From Candidatus Hydrogenedentes bacterium CG07_land_8_20_14_0_80_42_17 (GTDB lineage Bacteria; UBA8481), in the NCBI GenBank assembly GCA_002780065.1, contig PEWQ01000085.1, positions 1 through 11,091 on the forward strand: 11,091 bases of DNA, read 5' to 3'. Shown in pieces: positions 2-6,686 of the stretch. The translations under genes were made by a program, and so were the position numbers. Position 1 is the first letter of the stretch. Each line of letters begins with the position of its first letter. The notes under the pieces are model-generated. The model had not been told where the DNA came from, did not search any database, and was given only the letters and a program-made list of their open reading frames with translations.

Positions 2-1507
2 ACATGGTTCTATCTCGCCGGAAACTTCAGCATGCGCCTGCATGGCGTCCACGCGTTTCATGCTTTCCCGTACGTCATTCGTTGCGGCGGAATGCTCAAC
101 GTTTTCGGCGAGAAGTTGGCCAGGAAGACTGTTCACCCGGAAACCGGAGATGTCACCCTGGTCTGCGAGGGCTTTAACGAAAAAAATGACTATGTGCGTC
201 AAGCCCCGTGTGACCAGGACACCCTTCGCAAATTGGCGAAAGACACCGACTCGGAAAAACTGACGCGCTGGTTCAACCATGACGTTCCGAGGGAGTTCAA
301 GAAGCATCACGTCTTTGATGACGACGGCTACTTCATTGGAGACGCCAGCTTCATTTTCGTGCCCGATAACCCCAATTACGAAGATTCGGCGCGCATGCTT
401 TTCGACGAGCATGATCATCCCGTTGATCCCGAAAAGCTTGGCGGCATGTCCAAGGCGGCGGCCGCAAGATGCCAATGGCGGCGCTGCTACAAACTTGTTT
501 CTCTGCTGTATACGGACGCGCAACGCACATTCAGCCTCAGAGTGGCCGCGCGGCTGGTTTCGGGAAACAAGCACGAGTGTCCGATCTTTTACGAACTGGT
601 GGATCAGTTCGTCGCAAGCGTCGGCGTCGGCGTTATCAAGCGCCTACTGCTTGATCGCGGTTTTCTTGACGGCGAAAGGATATCCTTCTGCAAGCGTAAA
701 TACGGTATCGACATTCTCATTCCCGTCCGCAAGAACATGGACATTTATCACGATGCTCTCGGGATGTTGAAGAGCATGCAACTCGAGTTTCGGGAACACA
801 AGCCCGCAGTTCGTGAACCGGTTGATGCGCCTCGTCTGCCCGAAGCGCCCGTTCGTGTTCGCAAACGGGAACTGTCTCGTCAAAAAACAATCGCCGCAAA
901 AAAGGCGGAAGCGCCCTCGCCCGGTTCCAAGGACGTTCTCGTTCGCACCGAGGTCGCGGGAATGAACGACTTCACGAGTTGGAGTAGTTGTTCCGTTCCG
1001 CTCAGCGTCATCTACAATCGCGAGGTTTATGCGGACGGGCACGAACAAGTCTGGCTTCTGCTCGACACCCGGCGGATCACGAAGAACGATCCAGGAACGC
1101 GCAGGGAAGAGTATCGCGTACGAACGGAGATCGAAGAGGGACATCGGCAATTGAAGTGCTTTTGGGATCTCTCGCGCTTCACTTCCCGTGCTTTTTCACT
1201 CGTTCTGAATCAGATCGTTTTCGTTCTTCTGACCTTCAATCTCTTGCAGCTATTTCTTCGAAGTGCGGGCAACGAAAAGAAAAAGGAACTTCCTCGGCGA
1301 TCTCGGCCGAGGCAAATGGATCGGCTTCTCGTCACCGCCTCCGTGATCATCATTTACTGCGGGAACTACTTCGCCACTCTTGACCCCTTGGAATATACGG
1401 AAATTCTGCTCACACTTTCCGAGAACGCCAGGCAAAAGATCCTTGCGAAGACGCAACGGCTTCGGCGCGTTGATCCGAGGGAAATGCTACCCGTTCGCTC
1501 TCCATAG
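2..1507 (+). CDS. IS4-type DDE transposase, 5' end outside window
   Basis: This gene encodes a cut-and-paste transposase with an RNase H-like DDE core. The frame is open to the left window edge, so the gene is 5'-partial; the first in-window ATG is at 32, and residues below are counted from it. The IS4 signature Y-x2-R-x3-E-x6-K is exact (Y361, R364, E368, K375). Likely catalytic acidic residues are D104 (in FIGDASFIF), D208 (in LLLDRGFLDG) and E368. The long D208-E368 interval fits the beta-strand insertion of IS4/Tn5-like enzymes. Here it carries a Pro/Ala/Lys/Arg-rich, probably flexible stretch at about residues 258-300. A hydrophobic helix-rich segment follows the E (about 383-412). Base composition is much GC-richer than the genes from 1980 onward, which supports recent acquisition. 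Terminal inverted repeats could not be defined because the left end is missing. The family call is firm; whether the element is active is unknown. Confidence 0.9.
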   Translation, partial: TWFYLAGNFSMRLHGVHAFHAFPYVIRCGGMLNVFGEKLARKTVHPETGDVTLVCEGFNEKNDYVRQAPCDQDTLRKLAKDTDSEKLTRWFNHDVPREFKKHHVFDDDGYFIGDASFIFVPDNPNYEDSARMLFDEHDHPVDPEKLGGMSKAAAARCQWRRCYKLVSLLYTDAQRTFSLRVAARLVSGNKHECPIFYELVDQFVASVGVGVIKRLLLDRGFLDGERISFCKRKYGIDILIPVRKNMDIYHDALGMLKSMQLEFREHKPAVREPVDAPRLPEAPVRVRKRELSRQKTIAAKKAEAPSPGSKDVLVRTEVAGMNDFTSWSSCSVPLSVIYNREVYADGHEQVWLLLDTRRITKNDPGTRREEYRVRTEIEEGHRQLKCFWDLSRFTSRAFSLVLNQIVFVLLTFNLLQLFLRSAGNEKKKELPRRSRPRQMDRLLVTASVIIIYCGNYFATLDPLEYTEILLTLSENARQKILAKTQRLRRVDPREMLPVRSP

Positions 1508-1831: not shown

Positions 1832-1905
<74 letters not shown>

Positions 1906-1942: not shown

Positions 1943-1970
1943 TTGCAGTTCTTATGTTTTGATATATGAT
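1943..1970 (+). promoter_or_regulatory. Predicted promoter of the manA operon
   Basis: A good -10 element, TATGAT (1965-1970), lies 16 nt after a weak -35 element, TTGCAG (1943-1948). Transcription would begin around 1976-1978, only 2-4 nt before the manA ATG at 1980. No Shine-Dalgarno sequence precedes that ATG, so the mRNA may be leaderless. Confidence 0.45.
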
Positions 1971-1979
1971 TCTCAATCT

Positions 1980-2699
1980 ATGAAACATTTGTGCCCAAAA
2001 CTTATCGCTCGTCCATGGGGCGGACATAGACTTTATTCTATGTTATCAAGAGAACTTGATGTTGAAAAGATCGGTGAAGCTTGGATACATGATGGAATGT
2101 CCAAACCGAAAATTATTTTGAAATGGATTGATGCTCATGACGTGCTTTCGATTCAAAACCATCCTTCTAAGATTGGCTTTTCGAAAAACGAGGTTTGGTA
2201 TTTTATTAAACCTCCGAAAGACAATAAAGTAATTGTCGGTTTGAATTGCTCGCTGGATGCTGACGATATCGAGAATCACATCGAAACTATTTCTGTCAAT
2301 CGCGGAGATGTTCTCGAAATTCCGGCCGGTTGTCCTCACGCTCTTACATCGGGAAGCCTTGTTCTGGAGCTTCAGGAGCCTTTGGATTGCACTTACAGAA
2401 TTTATGACTGGGGCCGCGGCAGAGAAATCAATATCGAAAAAGCAGTCGAGTCATTGACGAATGCAAAAACTGTATTACATCGCATTGAGAAACAAGTAGG
2501 AAGAGTTTCTGTAATTTATCGACCTGAATTTATGATGGATGTTATTTTTGGACCAGCCGAACTCTCTTTTGAAAAAAAAGGGATCATAAGTTTTACCTCA
2601 GGCAACAAATTCGCAAAATCTTTACTTCTCGAGAAAAAAGATAAGATTTCGATTCTTTCCAATGAAACTGCTGTTTGGACCTCGGATGGAAGTGATTGA
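1980..2699 (+). CDS. manA: Class I mannose-6-phosphate isomerase (compact)
   Basis: This cytosolic zinc enzyme interconverts mannose 6-phosphate and fructose 6-phosphate, linking glycolysis to GDP-mannose and glycan synthesis. Zinc-ligand motifs of type I phosphomannose isomerase are all present: Q59 and H61 in SIQNHPSK, E71 in KNEVWYF, and H120 in PAGCPHAL. They are followed by the family motif TYRIYDWGR (to R146). The N-terminal RPWGG motif (residues 11-15) requires a start at or before the ATG at 1980. An in-frame TTG at 1959 lies within the proposed promoter and is unlikely. At 239 residues the protein is shorter than typical ManA of about 300-400, mainly through shorter loops before the zinc site and a reduced C-terminus. 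The core is intact. It is the first gene of an operon, with rsmD starting 3 nt after its stop. Confidence 0.9.
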   Translation: MKHLCPKLIARPWGGHRLYSMLSRELDVEKIGEAWIHDGMSKPKIILKWIDAHDVLSIQNHPSKIGFSKNEVWYFIKPPKDNKVIVGLNCSLDADDIENHIETISVNRGDVLEIPAGCPHALTSGSLVLELQEPLDCTYRIYDWGRGREINIEKAVESLTNAKTVLHRIEKQVGRVSVIYRPEFMMDVIFGPAELSFEKKGIISFTSGNKFAKSLLLEKKDKISILSNETAVWTSDGSD

Positions 2700-5457: not shown

Positions 5458-5483
5458 AGCTGAAACAAAGAGGAGAGAATATT

Positions 5484-6686
5484 GTGGCTGACCGTTTACT
5501 ACCGATTATTCATGGAAATAAAGTGACATTTGAATTCGAACATCCAAATGCAACTATGCTGAATGTTTTAGGAACGTTCAATCACTGGGACATTAATAGC
5601 GGAGTGATGGAAAAAGGCGCCGACGGTATTTGGAGAAAAACCGTCGATGTTCCTTTAGAAGGCTCTTACGATTATAAATTCATTGCTGATGGCGAATGGA
5701 TTTTAGATCCTTTGAATCCCGACTACGGAAAGGACTCAAGGGATAGGTATAATTCAAGGTTTCAAATAACAACCTCGGCTTCCGCTGTTGATCATCTGAG
5801 AAGAATTGCAATTGGATTGGAAAATAATCCGCCGGGTGGAGATTTCAATGAACGAAAAAAACTTTTTGAACTTGCAGATACTATGCTTCAGCTTCCGTCG
5901 GCAGGTTACAGCCGAGTCTTAAAAAATCATTTAGTAGAGCGCATTGAATCTTTAACAAAGAAGCTGACGATTAAAGAGGATAGTTTTGTTGCCGGAGTTT
6001 ACTGTCATGGATTTGCGATTCAGTCAGCAGGAAAAAGTTTTGGTTTAGATATTGTCACTACACGCTCTGTTTACGGGATGTATTGGGATTTGCCTTCGAA
6101 AACAATTGAAGGTCTTGCAGACCAATTCGACTGTATATGTGCGTCTCATCTGCATCCGGATCATTGGGATCATTTGTTAATGAAATACGTTATAGCACGC
6201 GGAGGAAAGGTTCTCGTTCCTTCTGCTATTGCAGGGCGTTTTCCTGATGGAGCTGTTTCAGTAAAGCCGGAAGAGACAGTCGACGTTTTCGGATGGAAGG
6301 TTACTTTTCATTCAGGTCAGCATGTTTACGACGATCAAAATAAATTGATTCTGAATTATTATGAAGTTTTGACTCCGGATTGTAAACGCATTGTTCACAC
6401 TTCTGACCATGACTATACAACAGGAGTTAAACGCGGAGGCGATATAGACTTGCTGATTGCAAAAGCAGGCGGTGTGAATCCTGTTTTTGAAGGCAGAGGA
6501 AAGGACGCGTTTATTAACCTTTTACTTCACCTTAAACCCAATAAATTTATAGCCGGTCATTTGAATGAATTAGGGCACCCAATAAAAGGCGGCAGAGAGC
6601 CTTACAAAACGGGAATAGAAATTGTTGAATCCGCTCGGAATCGGAACGGAGAAATATTACATTGGGGAGAAACTTGGAAGCTGTAG
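5484..6686 (+). CDS. Glycogen-binding (CBM48) domain fused to MBL-fold hydrolase
   Basis: This 400-residue protein has no signal peptide and is predicted cytosolic. It starts at a GTG, with GAGGAGAG (5470-5477) as a well-spaced ribosome-binding site. Residues of about 12-95 form a CBM48/AMPK-beta glycogen-binding domain. LGTFNHWD, YDYKFIADGEW and LDPLNPD are present, and the three residues that contact glycogen in AMPK-beta1 (W100, K126, W133) correspond to W35, K65 and W72. A helical linker (about 102-165) leads to a metallo-beta-lactamase fold resembling the UlaG-like branch. It has the dinuclear metal motif HLHPDH (H222, H224, D226, H227) and later candidate ligands in FHSGQH (276-280), TSDHDY (D308, H309) and AGHLNELGH (H359, H365). 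Inference: a hydrolase, perhaps acting on a phosphoester or lactone of a sugar, held on or regulated by glycogen. The substrate is unknown. It converges with rpsT, with 6 nt between the stop codons. Confidence 0.88.
   Translation: MADRLLPIIHGNKVTFEFEHPNATMLNVLGTFNHWDINSGVMEKGADGIWRKTVDVPLEGSYDYKFIADGEWILDPLNPDYGKDSRDRYNSRFQITTSASAVDHLRRIAIGLENNPPGGDFNERKKLFELADTMLQLPSAGYSRVLKNHLVERIESLTKKLTIKEDSFVAGVYCHGFAIQSAGKSFGLDIVTTRSVYGMYWDLPSKTIEGLADQFDCICASHLHPDHWDHLLMKYVIARGGKVLVPSAIAGRFPDGAVSVKPEETVDVFGWKVTFHSGQHVYDDQNKLILNYYEVLTPDCKRIVHTSDHDYTTGVKRGGDIDLLIAKAGGVNPVFEGRGKDAFINLLLHLKPNKFIAGHLNELGHPIKGGREPYKTGIEIVESARNRNGEILHWGETWKL

Follow-up and report, generated by a model that had tools for sequence, protein, structure and literature searches.

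CBM48 domains have been described in amylolytic enzymes, AMPK, starch-targeting proteins, glucan phosphatases and some esterases. In combination with a metallo-β-lactamase (MBL) hydrolase, such a domain would represent a new glucan-associated activity in bacteria. P0001, the 400-residue product of the gene analyzed here, has this arrangement (N-terminal CBM48, helical linker, C-terminal MBL domain). Among the described systems that resemble its N-terminal part, the CBM of the AMPK β subunit (1z0m, 4yef) has the CBM48 fold and the W/K/W residues that are kept in P0001, but is only ~22% identical and is joined to a kinase-binding region instead of an MBL domain. The glucan phosphatase SEX4 (3nme, 4pyh) likewise combines CBM48 with a hydrolase and gives a weak sequence match (E 2e-4), and can be thought of as a functional analogue. 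Its catalytic domain, however, is a dual-specificity phosphatase that is followed, not preceded, by the CBM48, and P0001 lacks the dual-specificity phosphatase domain by which glucan phosphatases of the SEX4/laforin kind are defined. Feruloyl and acetyl-xylan esterases of the CBM48-CE1 kind (6rzn, 8bbp) also have an N-terminal CBM48 on a non-amylolytic hydrolase, which in their case is a xylan-related α/β hydrolase.

On the catalytic side, UlaG (L-ascorbate-6-phosphate lactonase, PDB 2wyl/2wym) shares with P0001 the MBL fold, an HxHxDH motif with the ligands that follow it, and N-terminal helices before the core, through which members of the UlaG family form hexamers, and the two MBL domains superpose with Z 21.7 (3.2 Å over 231 residues). 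UlaG has no CBM48, however, and is ~17% identical to P0001; aligned UlaG orthologues are >50% identical to one another (PMC3219644). The UPF0173 hydrolases (TM_1162, 3x2z; the cAMP-binding 7e3w) match the minimal MBL core (Z 21.4, 2.4 Å over 203 residues; 17% identity) but have neither the helical N-terminus nor a CBM48. NAPE-PLD (4qn9, 8p90) has its MBL fold behind a helix (Z 19.9 over 252 residues), but is a eukaryotic membrane phospholipase D, also without CBM48. A limited search of the open-access literature found no paper on a CBM48-MBL fusion, in agreement with a preliminary description, made from the sequence, which knew of no described system with this architecture.

The P0001 gene and its product

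The gene occupies positions 5484-6686 (+) of the window (the whole 11,091-nucleotide stretch of DNA that was analyzed), as defined by an open reading frame of 400 codons and by full-length homologues with identical domain order. Its start codon is GTG, 6 nt downstream of a Shine-Dalgarno-like GAGGAGAG at 5470-5477 (+), read directly from the sequence. The gene stands alone: its upstream neighbor, a transglycosylase gene, is ~330 bp away, and on the other side rpsT converges on it. Its base composition (GC 0.41, GC3 0.33) is like that of its neighbors, so that by this measure it is no recent arrival. At the N-terminus of the protein (MADRLLPIIHGNKVTFEF), a hydrophobic stretch is not visible by eye; with no evident signal peptide, the cytosolic location proposed in the preliminary description is probable.

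An alignment of 13 relatives gave an AlphaFold model of P0001 with high confidence over its whole length (mean pLDDT 89.3, pTM 0.85). The linker (residues 98-165; 5775-5978 (+)) is modeled as three helices (residues 99-114, 121-135 and 144-162), and alignments show it to be common to relatives with and without a CBM48, preceding the MBL domain in both.

The CBM48 domain

The CBM48/AMPK-β type domain (residues 8-97; 5505-5774 (+)) is matched above the Pfam cut-off by PF16561 (E 1.8e-7; 31.7 vs 26.8 bits) and by PF02922 (E 2.3e-6; 28.3 vs 22.4 bits). In a separate structure model of residues 1-166, residues 3-99 superpose on CBM48 structures; the top matches are CE1 esterases (Z 14.9-14.8), and the domain also matches the E. 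coli branching enzyme (Z 13.2), the AMPK-β1 CBM (1z0m; Z 13.0, 1.3 Å over 80 residues), AMPK-β1 complexed with glucosyl-cyclodextrin (Z 12.9, 1.3 Å over 79 residues) and SEX4 (Z 11.8). The AMPK-β-type module that the preliminary description had read from the sequence is thus confirmed, and superposition of a predicted structure on AMPK-β1 and UlaG, which it had suggested as a check, gave 1.3 and 3.2 Å, respectively. Alignment also agrees with its placement of W35 (5586-5588 (+)), K65 (5676-5678 (+)) and W72 (5697-5699 (+)) at contact positions of AMPK-β1, where they correspond to W100, K126 and W133. N90, in an NS motif (5751-5753 (+)), is placed by CBM48 alignment at what we take, as probable, to be the position of AMPK-β1 N150.

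These four residues are kept in P0001, in its homologue from genome G001 and in all six subtilase-linked forms (see below), that is, in 8 of the 10 fused CBM48s; the orthologues from G030 and G061 (2 of 4 orthologues) have W, R, F/Y and D in place of W, K, W and N. Between P0001 and the G001 protein, conservation is highest in the CBM48 (66%, compared with 35% in the linker and 49% in the MBL domain). W, K, W and N recur, however, in most of the CBM48s that the window genome encodes, for example in an amylase and in a probable outer-membrane protein. Since this is the usual CBM48 pattern of the genome, it is not specific evidence for glycogen.

Also encoded in the window genome is an apparently exported protein with four tandem CBM48 domains followed by a probable β-barrel (L056:7646-10675 (-)). 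Another apparently exported protein (L060:10196-12787 (-)) has six tandem CBM48 domains, and an ABC-transporter permease (BPD_transp_1; L060:3818-5191 (-)) has a CBM48 (PF16561, E 6.5e-13) in an N-terminal, probably extracytoplasmic segment.

The MBL domain and its metal site

PF13483 (Lactamase_B_3) matches P0001 below its cut-off (E 0.0026; 18.2 vs 24 bits), and its gathering score is reached by two relatives (L047 and L050). The model of the MBL domain (residues 166-400; 5979-6683 (+)) has the αβ/βα MBL fold and matches many MBL structures at Z 18-22; the assignment is secure because of the structural matches to UlaG (2wym) and UPF0173 (3x2z), after which NAPE-PLD, CPSF73 and CmlA come next. 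The HxHxDH metal site is HLHPDH (H222-H227; 6147-6164 (+)), aligned with HDHNDH of UlaG. H280 (6321-6323 (+)), which is invariant in the four CBM48-MBL proteins, is a candidate third-position metal ligand; D308 in SDHDY (6405-6407 (+)), aligned with the GD motif of UlaG, is a candidate bridging ligand; H359 in GHLNELGH (6558-6560 (+)) aligns with the UlaG ligand region as the last metal ligand. All seven (H222, H224, D226, H227, H280, D308 and H359) are present in 4/4 CBM48-MBL proteins, which bears out the earlier report of an intact site with further His and Asp ligands.

The description of the domain as UlaG-like holds for the fold. A profile of the family does match UlaG (E 2.9e-9); the UlaG equivalog model does not match P0001 at E<=0.1 (one relative matches weakly, E 9.6e-5), and the UPF0173 (PRK00685) model NF001911 matches 1 of 13 relatives (E 0.0017) and not P0001. 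Membership of P0001 in either family is not supported. Lactonases, phosphodiesterases, nucleases and diiron oxygenases all occur among the fold neighbors, and the reaction can therefore not be read from the fold.

Relatives and architectures

A helix-MBL relative is encoded in 13 of 386 widely sampled genomes (E<=1e-6), and narrower searches yielded more. Type I proteins (CBM48-MBL, active site intact) are found in the window and in G001, G030 and G061. The G001 homologue is full length and 50% identical to P0001, and those of G030 and G061, from another phylum, are 27-28% identical; domain order is the same in all. Recurrence of this order in three independent genomes, a comparison that the preliminary description had recommended, rules out an assembly chimera or mis-join. 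Type III proteins have the MBL domain without CBM48 and, in most, an apparent export signal as judged by eye (G283, G258, G384, G122, G157, G278); type IV is the MBL domain alone (G121, G413, G415, G404, G392).

In type II (~915-935 residues), an N-terminal region and a subtilase precede the CBM48 and the MBL domain. This form is found in six genomes (G198 and G328 of one phylum, G383, G422, G423 and G424 of another, both distinct from the type I phyla; genes at L047:1754-4555 (-), L048:5806-8604 (+), L051:7472-10252 (-), L092:4360-7104 (-), L093:4040-6799 (+) and L094:5178-7937 (-)), and no genome examined has types I and II together. The Asp, His and Ser motifs of the subtilase triad are intact, a signal peptide is not evident, and HxHxDH of the MBL domain is replaced by QRLPDH or HRLPDH. 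The stretch RLPDHLD is identical in 6/6 type II proteins, which suggests a site that is maintained in a changed form, not one in decay. It would have become a conserved (Q/H)RLPDH pocket, probably non-catalytic, and the module appears to be a glucan- or ligand-sensing tail of a cytosolic protease. (With a cytosolic subtilase that appears to be active, a CBM48 that is intact and an MBL site that is probably dead, this form allows a direct test of the idea of a bacterial protease that is tethered to glucan or senses it.) The N-termini of the G198 and G328 proteins are recombinase-like, with a Phage_integrase (PF00589) match over part of the model. The type II genes of G383, G422, G423 and G424 have similar genes upstream and, by a reading of the sequences instead of by profile, shikimate-pathway genes downstream. 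A search of the CBM48-MBL genomes for a free-standing equivalent of the long subtilase found none, the matches being generic subtilase-like ones (best E 4e-9 in G030, otherwise ~1e-6).

CBM48-MBL is a genuine and, as it appears, undescribed domain combination with a protease-linked sister form. Contigs of named genomes, scanned once for close relatives of P0001, yielded only an unrelated CBM48 match, and plasmids yielded none; a viral structure library gave CBM or MBL matches only separately. Assignment to an anti-phage system was considered and rejected: P0001 has no PADLOC match, and those of the subtilase forms are confined to the protease part and to the models for subtilase and IetS.

Origin of the fusion

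All ten fused CBM48s have a one-residue insertion (VPLEGSYDYKF in P0001 vs LP-VGKYQYKF in other CBM48s) that is found in 0/16 comparison CBM48s from the window genome and G030. The shared insertion supports one old CBM48-MBL fusion. The fused CBM48s also group together in a tree, with modest support (68/77); in the MBL tree the fused forms do not all group, and a single clade is not rejected (AU p 0.149). That one old CBM48-MBL module has been inherited in two architectures is well supported. The simplest reading is of a single ancient joining of CBM48, helices and MBL, with or without a subtilase, the hydrolase site having been lost in the subtilase form, and of spread over four phyla by descent or transfer.

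Proposed function and its alternatives

Our preferred reading, held tentatively and at somewhat less than an even chance, is that P0001 is a cytosolic dinuclear metallohydrolase tethered through its CBM48 to α-glucan or glucan-like oligosaccharides. The CBM48 would hold the enzyme on, or sense, α-glucan (most likely the cell's glycogen) or glucan-like oligosaccharides, and its binding would position the UlaG-like MBL site on the glucan or in its neighborhood. There a dinuclear metal site would activate water, and the MBL site would hydrolyze an ester, a lactone or a phosphodiester, a substrate class that is guessed by analogy with two fold neighbors, the UlaG lactonase and the NAPE-PLD phosphodiesterase. 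Binding of glucan is suggested by the retention of W35, K65, W72 and N90 and by the strong conservation of the CBM48; in plant PTST, starch binding requires the tryptophans equivalent to W100 and W133 (PMC4339375). A homologue of glycogen synthase (glgA) is present in 7/7 module-bearing genomes tested, against a background of 255/386 (66%), but this co-occurrence is not significant ((255/386)^7 = 0.055), and no glycogen genes are adjacent to P0001-type genes in any neighborhood looked at. Of the roles proposed in the preliminary description, targeting to glycogen is thus plausible, and action on a damaged sugar phosphate is conjectural. A wider proposition, that a glycogen-gated protease and a catalytic metallohydrolase are two alternative forms of one previously undescribed glucan-responsive CBM48-helix-MBL module in four phyla, we consider unlikely as a whole. 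In it, the MBL domain of the cytosolic subtilase would be a conserved pseudoenzyme. If true, the module would couple the state of the energy store to the repair of metabolites or the turnover of proteins, as a bacterial analogue of AMPK-β sensing.

The CBM48 might instead have a structural role: as an E-set domain packed on the MBL domain, it would shape the entrance to the active site and hold a dimer together, as in CE1 feruloyl esterases, without binding α-glucan, and the substrate would be a soluble metabolite. We regard this as only a little less probable than glucan tethering. For CE1-esterase CBM48s, the top structural matches of the P0001 domain, both a lack of starch binding and packing against the catalytic domain and one another have been reported (PMC8040265); the altered contact residues in half of the orthologues and the short, confidently helical linker are also consistent with such a role. 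On the other hand, the face of the CE1-type domain is described as aromatic-poor (PMC8040265), whereas W, K, W and N are all kept in the great majority of the fused CBM48s, and it is the CBM48, not the MBL domain, that is the better conserved between P0001 and the G001 protein.

The neighborhoods of the other type I genes (L044:2519-5044 (+), L045:8097-10470 (-) and L030:1492-3628 (-) in G001, G030 and G061, including hemA or cbiG) may point elsewhere, to tetrapyrrole (cobalamin/haem) metabolism. In G001, 3 bp separate the gene from the end of hemA (TIGR01035, E 2.9e-83); in G030, the interval to the preceding cbiG (cobalt-precorrin 5A hydrolase) is 4 bp, and G061 likewise has cbiG as the gene immediately upstream. 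P0001 would then hydrolyze an intermediate or by-product of that pathway, its CBM48 being a relic or binding something else. This adjacency in two of three lineages is a lead; as an explanation of P0001 it is improbable, since only two lineages show it, the pathway was picked after the fact and the window gene, flanked by the transglycosylase gene and rpsT, has no tetrapyrrole neighbor. (The presence of hemA itself is uninformative because all seven genomes tested have it.) A diiron oxygenase-type site like that of CmlA or FrsH, in place of a hydrolase, is very improbable. FrsH is matched both by profile (E 9.6e-8) and by structure (Z 18.8), and CmlA by structure (Z 19.1), but UlaG and UPF0173 rank higher in structure (Z 21-22) and 3kl7/UlaG higher in sequence. 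H280, itself a candidate ligand, may occupy the place of Glu377 of CmlA, a studied residue which we take to be a metal ligand of the diiron site, and if so this would also speak against an oxygenase. The glucan-tethered hydrolase remains our preferred reading.

Other genes of the window

The upstream neighbor of the P0001 gene (3067-5148 (+)) encodes a transglycosylase (PF00912) domain, unusually combined with a long preceding region that matches DUF748 weakly. A short ManA-like protein (1959-2696 (+); TIGR00218, E 1.2e-12, below cut-off) matches the mannose-6-phosphate isomerase model only in part. Near a tRNA gene (1832-1905 (-)) lies a DDE transposase gene (32-1507 (+)), the GC content of which is clearly higher (0.54 vs ~0.41); with the tRNA gene nearby, it is probably an inserted element.
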